64,000 bases of DNA from Cytophagaceae bacterium (GTDB lineage Bacteria > Bacteroidota > Bacteroidia > Cytophagales > Cyclobacteriaceae). Location: contig CP030886.1 in assembly GCA_006969745.1 (NCBI GenBank), positions 620,001 to 684,000 of the forward strand, given 5' to 3'. Shown here piece by piece: positions 8,517 through 63,960 of the stretch; the first letter of the stretch is position 1; each line of letters starts with the position of its first letter. A program made the position numbers and the translations under genes. The notes below the pieces were generated by a model that had not been told where the DNA came from, did no database searches, and saw only the letters and a list, made by a program, of their open reading frames with translations.

Positions 8517-8533
8517 GCAGTCCGTAGGGGAAT
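8517..8533. repeat. Left attachment site (copy of tRNA-Glu 3' end)
   Basis: GCAGTCCGTAGGGGAAT, identical over 17 bases to 63944-63960, where it forms the acceptor and part of the T arm of tRNA-Glu. No tRNA body is present here, only the 3' end. An integrase gene starts 122 bases to the right. This is the classical signature of site-specific integration into a tRNA gene. Confidence 0.85.
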
Positions 8534-8634: not shown

Positions 8635-8657
8635 ACGACAGTAATAGCGACAGTAAT
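8635..8657 (+). repeat. Tandem CGACAGT repeats at the integrase start (likely arm-type sites)
   Basis: Two tandem units, each containing CGACAGTAAT, the second running into the integrase start codon at 8656. A near-identical pair occurs at 63878-63900 and single units at 10165-10174 and 60408-60417, all in the same orientation. Binding by the integrase or excisionase here could also repress the integrase gene. The tract 8534-8634 between the attachment site and these repeats is AT-rich and holds a small GCATTTTT/AAAAATGC hairpin. Confidence 0.6.
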
Positions 8658-9867
8658 GTCTACTTTAAATTTTTTTATAGAGCAACATCTAGATAGGTTA
8701 ACCTACCCTATTTACGTAAGGTATGATCATGCCAGCAAGAAAGCCTTGTTTTCCACAAACATCAAAGCTTCAATTGATCAAATAAATTGGGTCATGGATG
8801 GAGCGAGGAAAAGAATTAAGTCTAGTGAACCGCTCAATAGAAAATTTATCGGATATCTAAGAGCCAACAAGGAGTTGATGGGTAATTATAAGGAAATACA
8901 AGACCTTGTGTTCGACGCAAGAGATCTCGGAGATCCTTCAGTTTATAAAGTCAAAGAATTGTACAACCGGAGTAAGAATCAAAGTGAGGTTCAAACTATC
9001 ATTCAGGGCATAGATTTTATAGTTGACAAACTAGAAGGATCAGGAGTCAGTGAGAGAACTTTGATCAACTATGATAAGAACTTAAGAAAGCATATTGAAG
9101 GCTTCAATGATTATAAAAACCATGACTACCTGCTAACGGAACTGGATAAATCGTTCGAATATGAATTTAAGAAATATCTATATAATAAAGATCAGCCGCT
9201 AAGCGATGGCTCAGTAGACAATCAGATAAAATACTTGAAAAGTCTTTGTTCCAAGCTGAATGAATTAGAAATACCTTGTAACAAACAAGTTCAAAGTTTT
9301 AAAAGAATTCCTATTAGATATGACATGGTCTACTTGACAGAAGATGAACTAGTGAGATTAATAGACTCACAGGTTCATAGCTCTGAAGCATTGAATAGGA
9401 AGAAAGATGTTTTTGTCTTCCAATGTTTAACCGGTGTTCGGGTTAGCGATTTAATGAGGTTCAGCGAAGATTTGGTGGATGACAAGAATAGATTAATAAC
9501 TAGATCCGAAAAGACTGGTTCTCCGATAAGAATTCCATTGGTTCCACAAGCCTTAGAGATCGCTCAAAAATACAAATACAAACTCCCACTTGAATCAGAA
9601 CAGAAATATAATAAAGCAATACACGAGTTCATGAAGGAGCTAGGCTTTGACCGAAAAATCGAAAGTAAAGACTTTAAGCCACTGCATGAAGTTTGTACCT
9701 CACATACGGCTCGCAAGACTTTTATCTCACAAGCTCTTAACAAAATGGGGTTAAGTGTAGCTGAAGTTTCTAAAATCACCGGCACATCTCAGGATACAAT
9801 CCAGAAGCATTATGCCGGTGCAAATATTTCAGAAATTGAGAAGAAGCTATTCAGCAATGCCAAGTAA
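8656..9867 (+). CDS. Tyrosine recombinase / phage-type integrase
   Basis: 403 residues. An N-terminal domain of about 100 residues is followed by a SAM-like core-binding domain (about 110-210) and the catalytic domain (about 220-400). Visible catalytic residues are the first Arg in LTGVRVSDL (about 261), a Lys in the beta-hairpin SEKTGS (about 285), HTAR (about 350-353) and the Tyr nucleophile in KHYAG (about 385). The usual GH box reads TGTSQDT, so the second His is replaced. The enzyme should excise and insert DNA between the 17-base sites at 8517 and 63944. The start codon lies in CGACAGT repeats, suggesting autoregulation. Its 3' end overlaps the convergent small gene at 9847 by 21 bases. 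Confidence 0.93.
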   Translation: MSTLNFFIEQHLDRLTYPIYVRYDHASKKALFSTNIKASIDQINWVMDGARKRIKSSEPLNRKFIGYLRANKELMGNYKEIQDLVFDARDLGDPSVYKVKELYNRSKNQSEVQTIIQGIDFIVDKLEGSGVSERTLINYDKNLRKHIEGFNDYKNHDYLLTELDKSFEYEFKKYLYNKDQPLSDGSVDNQIKYLKSLCSKLNELEIPCNKQVQSFKRIPIRYDMVYLTEDELVRLIDSQVHSSEALNRKKDVFVFQCLTGVRVSDLMRFSEDLVDDKNRLITRSEKTGSPIRIPLVPQALEIAQKYKYKLPLESEQKYNKAIHEFMKELGFDRKIESKDFKPLHEVCTSHTARKTFISQALNKMGLSVAEVSKITGTSQDTIQKHYAGANISEIEKKLFSNAK

Positions 9868-12520: not shown

Positions 12521-14359
12521 CTACCAAAAAAACACACAAGTTCCTTTGTATAAGTCGCGAACGCCTATCAATAATTCTTTTGTATCGTTATCGTAGCTCT
12601 TATCAATCTGCCAGTGTATTATGCTCCCTACAAACTCGCAATCTGATTCCTCAATCAAACCCGCCTCATATATTTCTTTCAGTGCAAGTCCATATGTATA
12701 GATAGTAAAATTATGTTTCGTCCGAGTAAATGAATTATAAAGAAATTGAATATCCTCTTTTTTAGGATTTCTAACTATTGAATATGCTAAGCCTGAAAGG
12801 ATTCCTTGATTTTCGTCAGTGCAAAGATCGATAACCTCTTGTAGTGGGATTTTGTGCTTTTCTATATACAATGAAATTCGATCTCTAGCAGCTTCTTTAG
12901 CTTTTACTCTGAGTTCTTTGGTATTAGATTGATCGGCATTTTTATAAAGATCTTCCAAGCGAGTCAACTCCGCAATAACACGATCCAAATTATCACCATT
13001 AGTTTTCTTTTTGTTTCTAAAGATCCTAGTAACAGTTATCTCCAACAATGGGGATTGACTTGCAATAACTATTTCCTCATGGTCAGAGATAATTCCATTG
13101 CCTTCATAAAGTAATAGTGCTATCGAATTCTCTTGAACTTTCTTATGACTAAAATCAAATCCAAATACTCCACTTCTATTGCTCGGAGCAGTTGAAGCAA
13201 TTGTATCACCATTAATTACAATATTTAACTGAACTCCTTTGACACCAACTCCAGATTTGTCAATCACTTTACCGGATAATCTTCTTATATATTCTTCTTT
13301 AGATGATGGTTTAGCTTCTTCATTTGTTTCGGCTGACATTGTAATCAACGGCTTAATATAAAGTAAAATTATGGCGACAATCACCCCTATGATAATTCCG
13401 GTAATGATTCTCCCTATATATTTTTTGATCCAAGCAAGAAACCTAAAAAAGATTCTGATTCGACCATCATTACGTAATCGGTAAGGGGACTTCAACAGTG
13501 TGACTCCAACAGGATCGGTGATTTCAAAGGTAAAAGGTTCACCCTCCTTTATTCTGACTGACTTTAATGAGAGAAGTTGCTCCTTGATCTTGATTTGGAG
13601 TGCATCCTTCAATCCTTGCTCCTTCCATAGGGATTCTTTAACATTAATATAGCCTTGATTGTTAATCCATCTCAATGTCTTTAGAATAAGCTCTTTAAGA
13701 GAGTCTTTTACAATTTTCTCAGTCGATGAATCCATGCCTTCGGCTTTAAAAATGGTTTCAAGAATTTCTTTGTTCTCATCTCTTTTTCTTACGTTGGACT
13801 CACTCGATGTGACAGTTTTTTTGATTCCAGCAATCCAACTTTGAAGAACACCAAAACAATTTTCAAATCCTCTTTCCGATGTTTGATGAGAGCCATCTGT
13901 GAACAACAACTCACGCTTTATTTTGACACCATTTTCCTCGACTGGTACTAATTCAAAAAAATGGTCAGGATTAAAATAGCTTATGAATCTTATTCTGTGC
14001 TTGGTAATAATTTGAAGTCGACAATAATCTTCATTTTCTTCTCCTACTAACCTGAATCGTGACATATGATAGTCAGTAAAACTCTCGCTTCGTTCCGGTT
14101 GGAATTTCACAAACCAATGTTTAAGTGATTGAATTGCAGATTCATAGCTGAGTGTAATCATTCGAGTATCATTTCGAACGATTTCAACCTGATTGTTACT
14201 TAGTGATTTGAATTTGAAGAACTCTTTCGAATATTGCTTTGATTTAAAAGTGTAATACTCAACCCCATTATCGCCAGCTATACATTCTTTGCAATAATAT
14301 GAGTCATATTCTGAGAAAAGTTCCTCTAGCTCGACTACTTGATGGTCATTTAGTGACAT
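12521..14359 (-). CDS. Membrane protein with carboxypeptidase-regulatory-like domain, function unknown
   Basis: 612 residues. The N-terminal half is cytoplasmic-looking with two repeated beta/alpha segments (KSKQYSKEFFKFKSLSNN..., EDYCRLQIITKHRIRF...) and an early CxxC (YYCKECI). A basic patch leads into one membrane helix (about 318-340, IITGIIIGVIVAIILLYI). After it comes a beta-sandwich like the carboxypeptidase-regulatory/peptidase-associated fold (about 357-445, SGKVIDKSGVGVKGVQLNIV), then a helical C-terminal region of about 150 residues. I do not recognise the whole. The gene follows the resolvase by 28 bases on the same strand and was probably acquired and is expressed with it. A sensor or defence role is possible but unsupported. 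Confidence 0.65.
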   Translation of the reverse strand: MSLNDHQVVELEELFSEYDSYYCKECIAGDNGVEYYTFKSKQYSKEFFKFKSLSNNQVEIVRNDTRMITLSYESAIQSLKHWFVKFQPERSESFTDYHMSRFRLVGEENEDYCRLQIITKHRIRFISYFNPDHFFELVPVEENGVKIKRELLFTDGSHQTSERGFENCFGVLQSWIAGIKKTVTSSESNVRKRDENKEILETIFKAEGMDSSTEKIVKDSLKELILKTLRWINNQGYINVKESLWKEQGLKDALQIKIKEQLLSLKSVRIKEGEPFTFEITDPVGVTLLKSPYRLRNDGRIRIFFRFLAWIKKYIGRIITGIIIGVIVAIILLYIKPLITMSAETNEEAKPSSKEEYIRRLSGKVIDKSGVGVKGVQLNIVINGDTIASTAPSNRSGVFGFDFSHKKVQENSIALLLYEGNGIISDHEEIVIASQSPLLEITVTRIFRNKKKTNGDNLDRVIAELTRLEDLYKNADQSNTKELRVKAKEAARDRISLYIEKHKIPLQEVIDLCTDENQGILSGLAYSIVRNPKKEDIQFLYNSFTRTKHNFTIYTYGLALKEIYEAGLIEESDCEFVGSIIHWQIDKSYDNDTKELLIGVRDLYKGTCVFFW

Positions 14360-14387
14360 CTATAATGCTTTTAAAATTCAATTCGAG

Positions 14388-14954
14388 TTAAACCTTCACA
14401 CCCTCATTCCTTAAATATTGATACAATGTAGATCTACTAATTTTCAGTGAACCAGTTATTTCAGAAATGGGTAATTCCCTTTTGTATAAAGTTACTGCAG
14501 CAGCGGCTTTATTTTTATCATAAGAACCTTTTGGCCTTCCTCCTTTTCTGCCTCTAGCTCTTGCCGCTTCAAGTCCGTGCTTTGTACGTTCACTCAGTAC
14601 CTGAACCTCCATAGCCTTCAAGACTGCAATGATCTGAAATACAGCCTCACCCATTGGTGATGTTGTATCAAAGATTCCTTCTTGGAGGCTTTTGAATTGA
14701 ATTCCTTTTTCTTTGAAATCGGAAAGAAGTGAGATCAACTCCTTTGAGGTTCTACCTAGTCTGTCTAAGCTATAAACCACAACAACATCACCGTCTCTGA
14801 GCTTGCTAAGAAGTTCCTCAAGCTTTGGCTTTTTCTCGCTCCTTCCAGATATCTTCTCAGAGAAAACATCATCACATCCTTCTTTCAGAAGAGCGTCTAC
14901 TTGAAGATCCAAATTTTGATCTTTCGTGGAAACCCTAGCGTATCCAAATATCAT
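14388..14954 (-). CDS. Serine recombinase (resolvase/invertase family)
   Basis: 188 residues, the usual length. The catalytic domain starts MIFGYARVSTKDQ with the nucleophile Ser at about residue 9, and shows the conserved SLDRLGRTSKEL and the long E helix (AVFQIIAVLKAMEVQVLSERT). The C-terminal helix-turn-helix (about 140-188) follows the GRKGGRPKG linker and reads LPISEITGSLKISRSTLYQYL. It should invert or resolve DNA at paired sites; candidate sites are the AGTTCGA repeats just upstream (14956-15082). No transposase gene is nearby, so it may resolve multimers, switch an adjacent segment, or be a remnant of a transposon. Confidence 0.92.
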   Translation of the reverse strand: MIFGYARVSTKDQNLDLQVDALLKEGCDDVFSEKISGRSEKKPKLEELLSKLRDGDVVVVYSLDRLGRTSKELISLLSDFKEKGIQFKSLQEGIFDTTSPMGEAVFQIIAVLKAMEVQVLSERTKHGLEAARARGRKGGRPKGSYDKNKAAAAVTLYKRELPISEITGSLKISRSTLYQYLRNEGVKV

Positions 14955-15444: not shown

Positions 15445-16296
15445 CTAATCTGATTTGATAAAAAACATTGTTGCTCCTTTCACTAACAAGCCAAGACATG
15501 CTTGCGCTGCATTTTCCACTTCATCCTTCAAAGCCTCTTTGGCTATATCCATTATTGCATCCCTTAATAGTTCTGACGACCACTTTGTAATTGAAGTGCT
15601 AAGTAAGTCTTTTACTTTCTCCTTAAACTGATTTTTAGCTAGTTTATCAACAAAATTGAGGTTAATTTGACTATTAAAATTGGAAACAAAGTAGTCGATC
15701 ACTCTCATCCTTTGGCCCCTGTTTAATTTGCTTATTGCGAGGATAAAGATGAGATCTAATTTTGCATCCATTTGTTTTATTCTGGATAATCCGATCTCCA
15801 GTATTTGAACCTGCTTGGACAATTCGTTAATGCTATCCCTTACATCGAGTGTCTTTGATTTATAGAAGATCTCATTTGCTACCAGCCAGGGCCTTACATA
15901 TGTTTTGATATAGCTAGTCATCAATTTTGGGAAGTTTGAGCCAGGTTTTTTAATTGCCCAGATTCCTGAACTTATGGCTTGATACTCTAGCAATTTTTCG
16001 GGATGATTTCCGCTTATGATCACTATTGGTATTATTTCCTTGAAAACTTGTCGGACTTCCTTAATGATATCTACTCCGAACTCTTTTTCTTTTTCATCAA
16101 GAATATCGAGTGCAATCATGTCCGGTTCTGCTTGCTCGATTGCATTAAGTATTTCCGTATAATTAGATTGTTTAATACAATCATGAAGAGTTGGTATGGG
16201 GATAATAGAAACATTAAACCCTGACTTGATAAAAGCCTCGGATATAATTTGTAATTGATCGGCTTGATCCTCAATAATTATCACGTTCTTTTTCAT
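15445..16296 (-). CDS. Response regulator (REC domain) with novel C-terminal region
   Basis: 283 residues. Residues 1-125 are a receiver domain: acidic pair E9-D10, phosphoacceptor D64 in IALDILD, S95 in IVIISGNHP and K116-K117 before Pro-Gly. The remaining 155 residues are mostly helical and match no output domain I know; there is no helix-turn-helix, and the tail (ACLGLLVKGATMFFIK) is rather hydrophobic. The ATG overlaps the stop of the giant kinase-like gene (ATGA at 16293-16296), so the two are translationally coupled, and the H-box of that protein is the obvious phosphodonor. Output through protein or membrane contact rather than DNA is my inference. Confidence 0.8.
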   Translation of the reverse strand: MKKNVIIIEDQADQLQIISEAFIKSGFNVSIIPIPTLHDCIKQSNYTEILNAIEQAEPDMIALDILDEKEKEFGVDIIKEVRQVFKEIIPIVIISGNHPEKLLEYQAISSGIWAIKKPGSNFPKLMTSYIKTYVRPWLVANEIFYKSKTLDVRDSINELSKQVQILEIGLSRIKQMDAKLDLIFILAISKLNRGQRMRVIDYFVSNFNSQINLNFVDKLAKNQFKEKVKDLLSTSITKWSSELLRDAIMDIAKEALKDEVENAAQACLGLLVKGATMFFIKSD

Positions 16297-19200
16297 AATT
16301 CTTCAATAAATGTGAGCTCAACTTTATAACCAGATTCCTTGGATGGGAATGGTTTATATTCTCCCTTGATAGCGTTGCTAAAAAGGTACTTAAGTACCGT
16401 GGATCCAACTTGAGTTGACTTTGAATTAGCTCTTGTTCCTATATTATCGTTTTCTATCACTACTCTCATTATCCCGTCCCCACCTTTTGCTATCGAGGTA
16501 GCAATATGTAATCGAGACACAAATTTTCCGTTCGAATCAGCATGCTTATAAACGTTCGTGATGAGCTCAAATAATATTGCTCTGAAGGTCTTAATTGAAA
16601 ATCCAAAAACAATATCATGTTTCAAATCAAAGGTCAATTCAAATGAGCCGCTACTCTTCATCATCTTAAATGAATTAAAAGCTTCAACAATCTGTTCAAG
16701 CTCTTCTTTCAGCTTGAAAGCACTAAACTGCTCTTCTAAATCTGGATTATAGAGAATTTGATCCTGGATGTCTTGTTTAATTTTCTTTGGTTCCAAACCA
16801 GATTTTATGGCTGAATATAGATTTCCAAAATGAACATTCGATGCTGCAAGTTGCAAGTTGATATAACTTTCCTTTGGGTTAAGAAGAATCTCATTTTTCA
16901 GATCAAACGAATTTGCAATGTTTACCAGAGGTATTTCCGCATTGTGTCTCGCACGCTGAATTATGTGTATGTGTCGAATCGATTCAATTCGTTGTTCAAC
17001 CGTTGAATTAAACTGGTCGTTTTCAAAATTCTTTCTTAACAATTCAACCAGGGAGTCCTTGAGAAAGAAAAAATATTTTAACCGTTCTTTGAATTCTGCA
17101 TTAAACATCTCACCTGGCAATTTTTCATCTTTTGGCAAATGTGAGAAGTACTTTCCGTGGTCACCCTCTCCATATAGGAATGTTATAGCACCAATATACT
17201 TTGCACTATCATGATCGCTATGGCCATGTCTATAATTAAGAAATCGAACAATGACAGTATCTTCATAGGGCTGATCCCTTTCTATTTTACCCTTTGCGAG
17301 ATCTTTCTTCCCATCTTCATTAATCGGATGAAAAAAAATATAGGTGTCATCTTCATGCTTGATGCAATGGTAAGTATGATACTGATCGTCTACTTCAAAC
17401 ATGTTTGGAGGTAAGTCACCTTTTTTACCAACCACATATGAATTCAAGCCTGGATCATCGAGTCCAATTCTTTTGAGTGAAAGAAACGCATTTGAACATC
17501 CCATTATTTCGGCACATAGTCCTACAATTTGATCAAAATATTGGAGCGGCTTTCCTTTGTCTGTCCTCCGAAGCCTCTTATCTAGTAAGAACTCTAAATA
17601 TTTTGACACAATGTAGGTTATTGAATAATGATGAATGGCTATATCTCCTGATTGGGTATCGCACTCATATTGACTTTTCAAGAAGCTTAAAATATACTGG
17701 TTATGAGGGTCAGTTGTCAGTGATTGATGAACGAGTTTTTTAAAATCTCTGTAGAATTGACTAGAAAGAATCTGAAGATTTTCTAAGTCATCAAAATTTG
17801 TTTTTAGTAGGGATCTAATTTCATATGAGTTATCAAGATTTTGGAATGACTTTCTCATAAGTGTATTGTTATCCAAATTCACCAGAATACACCACTTGAA
17901 ATAGTAATCACGCACATTCTTTCTTAAGAAAATGTTGAATTTTGATTTGTTACTGGTACTTCCAAAACCGTAGAAATCATTCTTGTATCTTACCTTGTAT
18001 TCGGGGAGTTTGATAGAATTATTAACGTCTTCCGAAATTTCAAAACCAACTCCAATTAAGAAACTCAACCAATAGCTTTTCATTTCATCATTGAAAATCA
18101 CTTTTTTTATCTGGGAAGCATACAAATATGGGAACAGACCTATATTTCTGAGTACCCCCATTTTGTCCTCCAAATTGAATTCAGCGATGGAGTCCAGATC
18201 GCTCATGAATTTGGTGAACAGATTTACCGAGAAAGGTGAAGCATCTGTATCGTCAAATTTCGACTCACCATTTGAAAGTATTAGCTTGTGATTGTTCTTT
18301 ATTGCAGCCTTAGAATCATCCCATTTCTTTGCTATATCTACTTCTGATTTATTATATACTGTTGTAATGATGCTTTTAAAAGAAGAGTATTTTGGATTGT
18401 TAAGGTCTCTGAAGAAGCGTATTAAGTTATCATCGATTCCATACTTTAATAGAATGGATTCAAACAAAATCCATAGATTCTTTATGACTTCATGCCGTAT
18501 AACTAATGTGGATCTTAATTCTACTAACTGGTTGATTAGGACTATAATTAAATTAATGTCAAGGACTGATAAATCTTCATTCTTTCTACTTGGATCAATT
18601 ATTTTTAAAAATTCCTTACTTAGGATATCACATGTTTCTTTCCTGAGAATGTGGTAATAAATCAACGGTGGACTGGAAATTGTCTTCACCATATCAATTT
18701 TTTCTAGTGTGTTAAGTGCTTTGTATTTGTTGAAATATGAGGTTCCGTATTTAAAGAATTTAGTTAATTCGGTCCTTTTAATACTCACAGGAACCGATTG
18801 TGTATCGGACAATAAGCCTATTCCGTTCTTTTCCGAATAAGGTGTGTTAAGGAGAAAGTATAACGAGTGAGTGTATTCTAGTCTTCTAAAATGCCTGGGC
18901 TTACAGTAGCCTAAGTCTTTTAAGCTTCTTGCCCTGTTCCTTCTTTGCTTATTTATCCAAACCATTCGGATGGGATCAAAAGACGTCTGTTCTGATATGC
19001 CACTTATGGAATCAGTATCCTTACATAAGAAACAAGGCGTATCCGGATACTTTATGGGAGGAAAATAAAGATCAATGAAACTAAAAAAATTCTTAGAAGC
19101 ACCTGTTCTCAATGAATCTCTAAGGGCATCTGCCTTCCGAAACTTGGAAAGCCGATTTATAAGTGTTATTACTCCTGTAAAAGGTGCTTTGAAATTTGTT

Positions 19201-22200
19201 GAATCTTCATCATTGGATAATTCAGATACAGACTGGCCATTGTCCAACATTGACTTCAAATAGCTTGAGGCCATATTTAATGTATTACCAGTAGCCAGGA
19301 CGTCATCAACATAGAAGAAGCAGATCTCATCTAAACCCTCACGGCTCAGATAGGAGAATTTTGATAATACATTATCTCGAAAATCGTCCCGAAAGTCAAT
19401 AGTAATTATGAAAGCCGAGCCGCTAAAAACAACATCATTTACCAATTGAACAAAATTGACATTGGATGGATGTTGAGAATTTATGATAACAATATTCTTA
19501 TCATAAATTTCTTCAGATATATTATCGTGGACATCTTTTAACCAACCACTGACCAGGTCAATATTGACTTTTGGTCTTAAAAAATTTTTAGAATCTATGT
19601 AATAAAGATGATGTGTATGATCCACTCGAATGTGACCATATTGCACGTAGCTCTTAAGGTATTTAATCCTGTCTAATTCCTCAAGAAAAGATTGGTAAGT
19701 TTTGTTTTCAATTACAGGAAGTCCTAAAATGTGATTTGGGACAACAGAAACTTTATTTGTTTCAATTAGTGGTTGATGGGCAGAAGAAACGGAAACTTCA
19801 GGAAAACATGTTTTACAATAAATAGGAACTGACCAATCCGTTGATTTAAGAATTCCATATTGCACCTCGAGTTGCGTTCCTTGGTTTACGCTGATAACCC
19901 TACTTTCAACGTCAATCGATTTCCAGCCATAGAAAGCCTCTTTTCGAGTAATTGAATTGATATCATCACCAAAATCATCTCGTACTACCACCAAACTAAT
20001 GGTCGTATCAAGAAACAAAGAATCCTCTGAGCGTCCATTCCGGTTGTTAAGGATAGATTTCCAAATTCTAGTAAACGTGGATAGACTACTTGCTATCGGT
20101 ACCACTATCACAAAGTGATAGGCAGTATTTTCTCTTAATAATTCATTAAATGGTTTTGACGGCTGCAAACTTTCTGAGTCTCTAATGACAGTACTACCAA
20201 TGAGTTTAGCCCCGCCATCAGAAAGGACCCTAGTAAGAATGCTTTCAACGTTAGAAATGGTTAATTCGGAATACTTGCCATAACCTACCAGAATAAAGTT
20301 TTTCTTTTCTGATAAAGCCGAATTAAGAATTTGATCAGCTATCAAATAGCTAAACCTATTAATGTTAAAGCTATTTAGGAAAAGAGTTGTTGCATCATAG
20401 AAATCTCTTATGTGCAGTTTCGATCCGAGTCTTACGTGTGTTTCATTGATTTGAAATCCGTAATCCAGATAGATATTTCTATCCAAATAATTAGAAGTTT
20501 TATGTTCAAATAGTGTAACCGGTCGATTAGATTCATTGCTTACAGGGATAATAATATCAAATGGAGTAGTGCTTAAGAATTCAGAATCATCATTAATGCC
20601 TTCACTATTAACCCCCTCTCCAGTCTCTTTAATGGAATACAGCTTATCAAAAAACCTGTGTTTCCTTCCATAGAGGCGAGTGGATTGGCTATTTGCACTT
20701 AAAAGTCTGGACTTGGAGGACCCGGTTAGGATTATCGGTGTAAATGAATTACTATCATCGAACAGATAAAGGAATGAATCGTTACTCCATATTATCCCAA
20801 GCTTTGAGATATTTCTTATTACAGCAATAAGTTGGTCTAATTCCCTTTCAGAGACGTTATAGATATATAGCTGTTTAACCTTGACTTCCAATTGGGAATA
20901 GGCCAATATTTTAAAAAGTGTGCTAAACGAATCTCTCGTTCCGATAGCATCATATACGTCTTTGGAATCAATAGAAACAGAGGTAATGTTTGAATTTTTT
21001 ATGTATTTTGAAATTCGCAGGCTTACATCAACGATGTAGTCATATATTCCCTCCCTATTAAATTTTTTAAATGGATTATCACCATGAATGGTGAAATCCT
21101 CGAATTTCTTTATTTGATGATAAAGGCTCTTGCCCTTTTTATTCCTTTTCTCATTTAGCCATTTGACAATTTGCTCGTTGATTGATTCCTTCTCAAAATC
21201 TATTTTATAAGTTACGGGTTCGTCAAATGAAATCAACGGTACTAGTCCCTGGAATTCAGTACCAGGCATATGGCTTTTGACCAATCGGCTTTTGCTAGGA
21301 TATGTATCTTTATAGATGAACCAAGTATCCTTTTGCTCCTTCGATCTATTTGATTTTATTTCGAAATAACCAAGTCGATCTTGAATTATTGAGGTGAATG
21401 TTTTTAGACCCAGATGGGCAAAATGTCGGAATTCAGGATATTCAATTTTAGTCGAGATGTTCTTGGGAGGTCTTGGAGTGAAGTAATCAATAAATGTTAA
21501 ACCATCACTTTTTGGCTGGCTCTTTTTAATTGTTTTCGCAATACCATTTACCTCGTAATCAAATATTGAAAACTCGAGAAACCTATGAAATCCATTTTCG
21601 TAGATTTTAAATTCATCACCAGATTCCTCAATATTATCAACATAGCTTTTGAAATCTTCGAAGTATAATTCGGACGAATTAATGACTTCATCAATTGGCT
21701 TTAGATGGAAGAAGAAATATCCTTTTCTATCTGAAGTATGATAAACAATGTTCTCTGCGAGTTCACGAACACCGGATAGAAATAATTCAATAAAACGAAA
21801 TAAATTCTCCAATTCAGAAATATCCTGAATGACTCGTTTGGTCCAAGCCTGTGTATAGTATGTCCTTGTTGATTTTGATAGCAGGCCATATTCACATATA
21901 ATACTATAGGCCAAAAACTGGACTAGAATCGGCTTTTCATTTATTGTGGTTATTACATCTAAAACATTTGTCGCATTTTCTATCAATGCCTTTTGAGTAT
22001 TTGACTTAAGTGCCTTTTTTTTCCACTTCCCACTCCATTTTTCAATGCAATCAACAATTTCTCTGTTTAGTTGATTAACAGATTTAGTAAGGTAGTTTTT
22101 TATATACCTGCTATCCTTAGTTGTTACATTAAAGCTTTTGCTGAAGTAGAATTCAAAAAGATCTGTAGTTATTGGAAGAAGTGGGGTAAACAGCCTGCTG

Positions 22201-22697
22201 ACAAGAATAGAATCCGCCTTTGTTATCTGTTCAAGACGCTTGGGCTTGCTGAATTGTCTTGTCAAGACAAACAAGTTTCGTAACTTGAGCTTGTTGAAGT
22301 TGTTTATTAGAAAAAAGAACTTTGAGACTTTGAATAAAAAGCGATCCGACTTTCCTCGGTCTGGGAACCCTCTAAGGTCAATGCCAAAGTTGATTTCTGG
22401 GAACTTGTCATTAAATCTTAGAATACTTATGAGTTCTGTGTAATGGATGTCTTTATGAGCAGGAATAAACAATACAGAAACTGCAGCCGGGATGAATTCT
22501 AAGTCAGCAAGTTTAATGCCCTTTAGGTCATCGGGCTTGACATCAATACCTTCTTTATCGGTTAAGAAATACCGGAAAGATTCAGTATCAAAATCAAAAT
22601 CATTCTCGATTTCACCATTTTCAATCAGGTTGCAAATGGTGAAAAGTTCAGACCACTTGGATTCATTGAATGATCTCGCTATAATGACTAATCTCAA
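16293..22697 (-). CDS. Giant multidomain protein: two HATPase modules, PRTase-like modules, GAF-like and H-box region
   Basis: 2134 residues, no signal peptide or membrane helix, so probably cytoplasmic. The start is TTG at 22697; an in-frame stop precedes it closely and no ATG fits. Visible order: unknown N-terminus; HATPase-like module with N-box RELAENIVYH (about 310), HLGLKTF (about 427) and MPGTEFQGLVPL (about 480); a phosphoribosyltransferase-like unit with RLGSKLHIRDFY (about 760) and ILVGYGKYSEL (about 806); CxxC in IYCKTC (about 961); a second PRTase-like unit with the PRPP-loop motif FYVDDVLATGNT (about 1132); CFLC (about 1222); a long helical region; a GAF-like region (about 1690-1890); an H-box-like RHNAEIPL (His about 1916); and a C-terminal HATPase with N-box ELITNVYKHAD (about 2048). 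It is upstream of and overlaps a REC-domain gene. I infer a phosphorelay-linked sensor that may make or sense a nucleotide-derived molecule, possibly in defence. I know no named system with this layout. Confidence 0.75.
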   Translation of the reverse strand: MRLVIIARSFNESKWSELFTICNLIENGEIENDFDFDTESFRYFLTDKEGIDVKPDDLKGIKLADLEFIPAAVSVLFIPAHKDIHYTELISILRFNDKFPEINFGIDLRGFPDRGKSDRFLFKVSKFFFLINNFNKLKLRNLFVLTRQFSKPKRLEQITKADSILVSRLFTPLLPITTDLFEFYFSKSFNVTTKDSRYIKNYLTKSVNQLNREIVDCIEKWSGKWKKKALKSNTQKALIENATNVLDVITTINEKPILVQFLAYSIICEYGLLSKSTRTYYTQAWTKRVIQDISELENLFRFIELFLSGVRELAENIVYHTSDRKGYFFFHLKPIDEVINSSELYFEDFKSYVDNIEESGDEFKIYENGFHRFLEFSIFDYEVNGIAKTIKKSQPKSDGLTFIDYFTPRPPKNISTKIEYPEFRHFAHLGLKTFTSIIQDRLGYFEIKSNRSKEQKDTWFIYKDTYPSKSRLVKSHMPGTEFQGLVPLISFDEPVTYKIDFEKESINEQIVKWLNEKRNKKGKSLYHQIKKFEDFTIHGDNPFKKFNREGIYDYIVDVSLRISKYIKNSNITSVSIDSKDVYDAIGTRDSFSTLFKILAYSQLEVKVKQLYIYNVSERELDQLIAVIRNISKLGIIWSNDSFLYLFDDSNSFTPIILTGSSKSRLLSANSQSTRLYGRKHRFFDKLYSIKETGEGVNSEGINDDSEFLSTTPFDIIIPVSNESNRPVTLFEHKTSNYLDRNIYLDYGFQINETHVRLGSKLHIRDFYDATTLFLNSFNINRFSYLIADQILNSALSEKKNFILVGYGKYSELTISNVESILTRVLSDGGAKLIGSTVIRDSESLQPSKPFNELLRENTAYHFVIVVPIASSLSTFTRIWKSILNNRNGRSEDSLFLDTTISLVVVRDDFGDDINSITRKEAFYGWKSIDVESRVISVNQGTQLEVQYGILKSTDWSVPIYCKTCFPEVSVSSAHQPLIETNKVSVVPNHILGLPVIENKTYQSFLEELDRIKYLKSYVQYGHIRVDHTHHLYYIDSKNFLRPKVNIDLVSGWLKDVHDNISEEIYDKNIVIINSQHPSNVNFVQLVNDVVFSGSAFIITIDFRDDFRDNVLSKFSYLSREGLDEICFFYVDDVLATGNTLNMASSYLKSMLDNGQSVSELSNDEDSTNFKAPFTGVITLINRLSKFRKADALRDSLRTGASKNFFSFIDLYFPPIKYPDTPCFLCKDTDSISGISEQTSFDPIRMVWINKQRRNRARSLKDLGYCKPRHFRRLEYTHSLYFLLNTPYSEKNGIGLLSDTQSVPVSIKRTELTKFFKYGTSYFNKYKALNTLEKIDMVKTISSPPLIYYHILRKETCDILSKEFLKIIDPSRKNEDLSVLDINLIIVLINQLVELRSTLVIRHEVIKNLWILFESILLKYGIDDNLIRFFRDLNNPKYSSFKSIITTVYNKSEVDIAKKWDDSKAAIKNNHKLILSNGESKFDDTDASPFSVNLFTKFMSDLDSIAEFNLEDKMGVLRNIGLFPYLYASQIKKVIFNDEMKSYWLSFLIGVGFEISEDVNNSIKLPEYKVRYKNDFYGFGSTSNKSKFNIFLRKNVRDYYFKWCILVNLDNNTLMRKSFQNLDNSYEIRSLLKTNFDDLENLQILSSQFYRDFKKLVHQSLTTDPHNQYILSFLKSQYECDTQSGDIAIHHYSITYIVSKYLEFLLDKRLRRTDKGKPLQYFDQIVGLCAEIMGCSNAFLSLKRIGLDDPGLNSYVVGKKGDLPPNMFEVDDQYHTYHCIKHEDDTYIFFHPINEDGKKDLAKGKIERDQPYEDTVIVRFLNYRHGHSDHDSAKYIGAITFLYGEGDHGKYFSHLPKDEKLPGEMFNAEFKERLKYFFFLKDSLVELLRKNFENDQFNSTVEQRIESIRHIHIIQRARHNAEIPLVNIANSFDLKNEILLNPKESYINLQLAASNVHFGNLYSAIKSGLEPKKIKQDIQDQILYNPDLEEQFSAFKLKEELEQIVEAFNSFKMMKSSGSFELTFDLKHDIVFGFSIKTFRAILFELITNVYKHADSNGKFVSRLHIATSIAKGGDGIMRVVIENDNIGTRANSKSTQVGSTVLKYLFSNAIKGEYKPFPSKESGYKVELTFIEEL

Positions 22698-63545: not shown

Positions 63546-63803
63546 TCATTTTGATGAGGTCGAGCACTCAACCAAGCTATTTATTAAATCAGACTTCAAA
63601 TAGTAAACACGAACCGTATTTGGGATGCGATAACATTTTAGCTTACCAGATTTTGTCCAGTCATTTAAAGTTGGCAATGATATACTTAAAAATTCAGCTG
63701 CTTGCTCTCTAGTCAGTAATTGTTCATCCTCTTTTGATAAAATTCGAAATTCATCCCTCATTGCCTCTTTGAACTCTTCAAGAGTATATATTGATGCATC
63801 CAT
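63546..63803 (-). CDS. Excisionase-like HTH protein (HTH_17)
   Basis: 85 residues. The core is a MerR-like winged helix of the excisionase type: LLTREQAAEFLSISLPTLND, then WTKSGKLKCYRIPNTVRVYY, then LKSDLINSL. Such proteins act as recombination directionality factors or small regulators. The location, inside the right attachment site and about 75 bases from the CGACAGT pair, fits an excisionase for the integrase at 8656, although the two genes are at opposite ends while integrated; after circularisation they would be neighbours. A broken copy lies at 60170-60333. Confidence 0.8.
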   Translation of the reverse strand: MDASIYTLEEFKEAMRDEFRILSKEDEQLLTREQAAEFLSISLPTLNDWTKSGKLKCYRIPNTVRVYYLKSDLINSLVECSTSSK

Positions 63804-63943: not shown

Positions 63944-63960
63944 GCAGTCCGTAGGGGAAT
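63944..63960. repeat. Right attachment site within tRNA-Glu
   Basis: GCAGTCCGTAGGGGAAT, identical to 8517-8533. It covers the discriminator, the acceptor 3' strand and part of the T arm, so insertion rebuilt a complete tRNA 3' end here. Confidence 0.85.

Follow-up and report, generated by a model that had tools for sequence, protein, structure and literature searches.

A giant gene with predicted phosphoribosyltransferase-fold and kinase-like modules, candidate sensor of a mobile, defence-type two-component system in a Cytophagaceae bacterium

Introduction

What might a single gene of 2134 codons do whose product appears to combine two ATPase modules with two units resembling phosphoribosyltransferases (PRTases)? 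The question is raised by a locus of a Cytophagaceae bacterium (GenBank assembly GCA_006969745.1, contig CP030886.1, positions 620,001 to 684,000 of the forward strand); these 64,000 nucleotides, numbered from their first letter, are called the window. An initial annotation, made from the letters without database searches, had described the giant product as two HATPase and two PRTase-like modules with a GAF-like region and an H-box-like motif, and had proposed a defence or signalling role within a mobile element. The reading favoured here, which is given an even chance, casts the giant as sensor kinase in a mobile two-component system of the defence type, with the PRTase-fold pair as its sensor. 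The two-component part of this reading is based on a conserved His and Asp and a fixed gene order, the defence part on the gene neighbourhoods, and the nucleotide-sensing part on the PRTase folds and one intact loop of the type that binds phosphoribosyl pyrophosphate (PRPP).

Organization of the giant protein

The operon of the window comprises the following features.

16293..22697, minus strand: giant protein, 2134 aa, TTG start
21222..21914, minus strand: N-terminal GHKL/HATPase-like module, residues 262-492 (motifs and hhalign)
19827..20552, minus strand: PRTase-fold unit 1, residues 716-957
19065..19679, minus strand: PRTase-fold unit 2, residues 1007-1211
19281..19313, minus strand: PRPP-loop motif YVDDVLATGNT, residues 1129-1139
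17121..17513, minus strand: possible GAF-like alpha/beta region, approximately residues 1729-1859 (suggestive only)
16296..17030, minus strand: C-terminal histidine-kinase-like module, residues 1890-2134 (hhalign; Pfam match of the relative P0005)
16944..16946, minus strand: codon of H1918, the candidate H-box phospho-acceptor (family alignment)
15445..16296, minus strand: receiver protein, 283 aa, its start overlapping the stop of the giant by 4 bp

The frame of the giant is open over all 2134 codons, with no internal stop. Its domain order, as predicted from sequence and models, is HATPase, PRTase, PRTase, helical stretch, GAF-like region (questionable) and histidine-kinase-like module. No match up to E 1 was obtained for the protein in Pfam, NCBIfam, PADLOC or a PDB sequence search, and since these family and structure database searches were empty, the earlier domain calls had been motif-based alone. 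A scan of the whole genome with Pribosyltran gave six other places, the gene of the giant not being among them.

The fold search returned the PRTase core fold for both units, at 6-17% sequence identity to the listed structures, and thereby bears out the two PRTase-like units at the residues named by the initial annotation (around 750-1160); the lists were filled by PRTases, and the absence of other folds there was not counted as evidence. The acid pair of unit 2 is intact in the window (VDDVLATGNT), and VDD is found in 14 of 18 aligned rows. Stand-alone PRTase pairs of approximately 300-960 residues were not found among the 7993 scored candidates of a search of limited reach.

The N-terminal ATPase carries an N-box (N316 and H320), a G1 box (D380), a G2 box (H428-x-G430) and GT at 479-480; N316 and D380 are invariant across 18 aligned rows. 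Pfam HATPase_c was found in single relatives only (at the cut-off in P0005, elsewhere in 2/18 and 1/11 rows), the N-terminal module being matched in one of 11 rows with E 0.0062. As profile searches of the PDB with the HATPase regions yielded nothing significant (a match to VanS had E 1.2), the aligned family regions, of up to 24 rows and without L012 and the split L033, were compared by hhalign with the ATPase regions of 14 kinases, the top 14 of the 78 HATPase_c places in the same genome. The N-terminal region reached 95.9% (P 6.4e-9, 116 columns) and the C-terminal region 94.6% (P 6.8e-8, 109 HATPase columns), while six other regions of the giant reached at most 0.2%, so that both HATPase modules of the initial annotation are retained.

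The C-terminus reads as histidine-kinase-like from its sequence, namely as an HATPase domain after a helix with a candidate phospho-acceptor His. The H-box His ahead of this ATPase, which had been picked out earlier as an H-box-like motif, is common to 20 of 26 aligned proteins and missing in P0005, P0009-P0011 (possibly incomplete), L032 and L012. Given this conservation, we read the C-terminus as a kinase that passes its signal to the receiver (REC) gene. The GAF-like region fared less well: an alpha/beta region is present in the secondary structure of the model, and the match to phytochrome is weak, which leaves the assignment suggestive. A BRCA1 match (E 0.02), which would have made a RING of the CxxC region, was judged to be chance and rejected. 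No Rfam match was found in the window between 7000 and 26000.

Receiver, third gene and variants of the operon

Twelve loci were read (the window, L008, L009, L012 and L026-L033), the contexts of the relatives P0003-P0017 lying outside this set. A REC-like gene follows the giant in 11 of them, the exception being L032, which agrees with the expected recurrence of the giant beside REC genes. The receiver of the window has the signature residues E9/D10, D64, S95 and K117, and the acidic pair and the Asp are kept in all 11 RECs (alignment, as read). Its C-terminal part (15445-15927), of approximately 160 residues with a hydrophobic end, has no family match and is a possible effector. No relative of this receiver was found in the plasmid collection, and no DNA-binding output domain was detected in the four receivers that were scanned. 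The receiver of L012 (6711-8363) has an extension of approximately 400 residues with HD-like motifs by eye, in which Pfam gave only Response_reg.

A DUF2971-like third gene is present in nine of the 12 loci, all of them within the ten Bacillota-side loci; the operon thus has three genes in nine loci and two in the window and L012. The nine third genes have 21 invariant columns in common. With hmmscan, DUF2971 was above the cut-off in L028, L030, L031 and L033, below it in L008, L026 and L029, and not matched in L009 and L027; the gene of L008 exceeded the cut-off in the genome search (24.1 bits). In the Bacillota-side phylum, DUF2971 was found in 17 of 299 genomes, of which two have the trio. 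A PDB sequence search with the DUF2971 alignment gave nothing significant. The pattern YHYT...E.E is suggestive of an ADP-ribosyltransferase, and this assignment is not claimed, as the profile test was insignificant: in hhalign against DarT, a 29-row set (one row empty) reached 1.8% over only 15 columns (controls 0.1-0.4%) and the nine operon rows 0.7% (controls 0.1-0.8%).

Two loci bear on the modular build of the giant. The giant of L033 is divided over two adjoining frames, one with the N-terminal ATPase motifs and one with the PRTase-kinase part, which marks a module border. The giant of L032 (1129-8031) is followed by neither a REC nor a DUF2971 gene and has no H-box His; it keeps the PRTase pair and the N-terminal ATPase. 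At its C-terminus, for which no PDB relative was found, are the motifs DLH, GDV, GNHD, HHTPL and GGHTH, which we take to be those of metallophosphoesterases; with these motifs in place of the kinase H-box, the output module seems swappable. A relative of 1147 residues, P0016, ends just past the second PRTase unit on a 39-kb contig and is perhaps naturally split or kinase-free.

Family size and distribution

The family is real, rare and mobile. A search of approximately 5.8 billion proteins with the protein of the window returned four relatives besides itself, and a second search with a three-row alignment, in which two new loci were included, returned 11 more besides the window's own protein. 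Family giants have approximately 1900-2300 residues; the invariant columns of the 18-row alignment fall within the N-terminal ATPase motifs and the motifs of the two PRTase units. Among sampled relatives a match was found in one of 59 genomes, the source genome itself. The phylum of the window gave 2/395 genomes, the source genome and another with a weak match (E 2.9e-5). Matches were found in 11/397 genomes from the family to which the Agathobacter genome G450 belongs (eight strong, G450 included, and three weak, two of the latter resembling recombinases) and in 2/398 from the phylum of G450 (G450 and one other). The weak genome matches L022 and L024 are serine recombinase-like by eye and hence false. 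L023 (946-3132), a frame of 729 residues with a canonical-looking PRPP loop (VDDEISTGKT), looks to be outside the giant family and was set aside.

Mobile element and genomic neighbours

From its sequence, the operon looks to be part of an integrated element of 55.4 kb (8517-63960), as judged by a tRNA-Glu repeat and by the integrase and HTH_17 genes at the ends; the initial annotation had already suggested a mobile element. The ends are defined by the following features.

8517..8533, plus strand: left 17-nt copy, matching the 3' end of tRNA-Glu and likely an attachment site
8656..9867, plus strand: tyrosine integrase of the element carrying the operon (Phage_integrase 35.6 bits, cut-off 27.1)
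63546-63803: HTH_17 excisionase-like gene, just inside the right copy
63944..63960, plus strand: right 17-nt copy, forming the 3' end of an intact tRNA-Glu(TTC) gene

With up to one mismatch allowed, the genome has two copies of the 17-nt sequence, both in the window, and the integrase lies just inside the left one. A comparison with relatives from the genus gave no result for the ends, as the flanks were too diverged, and the tRNA repeat settled them. The cargo includes SusC/SusD-like nutrient-uptake genes (by eye) and permease-like genes. In L044 (approximately 2267-2318, genome 594266-594317), 34 kb to the left of the element, the terminator and part of the tRNA end are repeated over 52 bp at 92%, which may stem from an earlier, tandem insertion at this tRNA. 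Directly downstream of the receiver (12521-14954) lie an Mpi-like serine recombinase (14388-14954) and a protein of 612 residues with a likely membrane helix. An invertible promoter was considered because the Mpi-like recombinase adjoins the operon, yet no convincing flanking inverted repeats were seen and the idea was dropped.

Defence-type genes lie near the giant at six loci (L008, L012, L027, L030, L031 and L033). In L008, AbiH lies ahead of the giant (128.6 bits, Pfam) and PDC-M38A/B behind it; L012 has a type II C5 methylase, L027 a methylase with a NotI-like nuclease and PDC-S01, and L031 a mad3-like ATPase. These six loci are in line with the predicted recurrence in defence islands; among the ORFs scanned beside L028 and L029, no clear defence gene was seen. 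Homologues are not always found in core housekeeping loci, although L029 lies next to ribosomal-protein-like open reading frames (by eye). L033 (1322-19899) is a dense defence island consisting of a PDC-M54A-like ATPase, an AbiH/LmuA-like gene, the trio and then BREX brxA and brxB. In L030 (1259-3100) a protein of 613 residues resembling PDC-M60C and PN-superfamily effectors is encoded near the trio, on the opposite strand and outside the operon. The neighbours of L009 and L026 are serine recombinases by eye.

Proposed mechanism and alternative readings

If the giant is a sensor kinase, the PRTase pair would bind a ligand of the nucleotide type, such as PRPP, a base, a nucleotide or an alarmone, that changes on infection; in this pair unit 1 would be a pseudo-enzyme and unit 2 a binder or an enzyme. 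The change of ligand, helped by the N-terminal ATPase, would release autophosphorylation at H1918; the phosphate would move to D64 of the receiver, and the receiver would activate an effector that brings about growth stop or death of the infected cell. In most Bacillota loci the DUF2971-like protein would take this effector role, in L012 the C-terminal part fused to the REC, and in the window, by analogy, the C-terminal part of the receiver. More tentatively, and somewhat doubtfully, the family may be a new class of immune sensor, in which the giant reads the nucleotide economy through a PRTase pair with one dead and one live PRPP-loop unit and the outputs are swappable: most loci would use a histidine kinase with a receiver and a DUF2971-type effector, and one a fused end resembling a phosphoesterase.

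A number of observations count against this picture. At the kinase end, the glycine box (G2, ATP lid) of the window reads STQVGST instead of GxGxGL, for which reason ATP binding by this HATPase is not assured; the box is degenerate in most rows, a canonical one having been read in P0005 and P0017 only. The L012 locus includes a REC gene, yet its giant is without His in the H-box column, and the two HATPase regions of the giant did not match each other in hhalign (2.8%). Pfam Response_reg reached only 22.6 bits on the receiver of the window (cut-off 30.2), and among four RECs it was above the cut-off only in L012 (12.8 bits in L009, no match in L008), the remaining seven RECs being assigned by alignment; the REC Lys is not retained in every REC, and no DUF2971-like gene lies alongside the operon of the window. 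In unit 1, VPIASSLST takes the place of the PRPP loop in the window (CDVVDTRTS in the distant L012), and the acid pair is present in none of 18 rows; unit 2 is without VDD in four of 18 rows (VDH or VT). A profile comparison did not detect the PRTase relation of unit 1 (0.1%), the two units did not match each other in hhalign (0.9%), and the mean pLDDT (predicted local distance difference test) was approximately 60 in both computed models. As for the setting, the neighbour scans covered hand-chosen ORFs without a background rate for defence genes, L009, L026 and L032 lying outside the PADLOC scans, and the neighbourhoods are thus supportive, not statistical. L028 had no defence gene in two scanned ORFs, L029 only a weak mad8 match (20.4 bits), and PADLOC gave only weak matches of 13-16 bits, on two recombinases, among six proteins of the window. 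No relatives were found in viral contigs or in the plasmid or phage collections.

An alternative that appears unlikely is a catalytic PRTase pair, in which unit 2 would make a phosphoribosylated messenger or a toxic nucleotide analogue and the kinase would only gate it, a case of signal production as in the cyclic-oligonucleotide-based antiphage signalling system (CBASS) and not of a phosphorelay. The PRTase folds in both units, the PRPP loop intact in the window, VDD in most rows, and L032, in which pair and N-terminal ATPase are joined to a non-kinase-like C-terminus, are consistent with it. Against a giant that makes a nucleotide signal count the acid pair missing from unit 1 in all 18 rows and the four rows in which unit 2 is without VDD, and the loop glycine of unit 2 is gone in 4/18 rows; the conserved His and the REC gene favour phosphorelay output.

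It is likewise improbable that the giant is a stress or metabolic regulator of the element or host (responding to PRPP, purines or ppGpp) without antiviral role, the defence neighbours reflecting shared insertion hot spots: the four scanned receivers are without a DNA-binding output domain, the spread over genomes is very patchy and defence-type neighbours are found at six loci. PurR-like PRTase sensors do exist, however; no clear defence gene adjoins L028, L029 or L032 (the last without PADLOC scan), and the nutrient-uptake and permease-like cargo of the window would suit such a role. A very low probability is given to a device of toxin-antitoxin type or for conflict between elements; the giant would then restrain a DUF2971-like toxin, and the operon of the window would be a decayed remnant without it. 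The DUF2971-like gene does come last, in fixed order, in 9/10 Bacillota-side loci and is missing beside the operon of the window; against decay stand the open frame of 2134 codons and the retained REC signature residues, and because in L012 this pair is found with another part fused to the REC, the missing DUF2971 looks like a variant.

Should the favoured sensor-kinase reading be true, this would be a defence-type signalling family with a sensor built of metabolic-enzyme folds, which would suggest that bacteria detect infection by monitoring PRPP or nucleotide pools. DUF2971, a term found in a single paper of the literature searched, would gain a testable effector role. Single substitutions at H1918, D64 and D1131/D1132 would probe each step directly.

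Comparison with known systems

PurR of Bacillus subtilis is a small, DNA-binding repressor with a PRTase fold, whereas a search of the giant gave no DNA-binding domain; the PurR structure 1o57 is titled purine operon repressor. Orotate and adenine phosphoribosyltransferases are type I PRTases; the units of the giant differ from them in being 6-17% identical and kinase-fused, with unit 1 devoid of the acid pair. In the figure legends of DefensePredictor, PRTase is abbreviated among the validated systems, HATPase and REC among the predicted ones, and it is not stated there that the three share a protein or operon; overlap is possible (PMC13092281). Among the literature matches listed, no defence protein joining PRTase and kinase modules was found, the possible overlap with that work notwithstanding.

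The defensive two-component system Detocs has the gene order kinase, REC, REC-PNP, and its logic is the closest among the known systems. It is described as a three-gene family with a PNP effector (PMC11249213); no member of the PNP family was found in the scanned giants, RECs and third genes. As in Detocs, sensor kinase, receiver and effector would be encoded together in a small operon, which has three genes at nine of the 12 loci, but the kinase described here is a giant bearing PRTase folds, and its candidate effector is DUF2971-like or fused to the REC.
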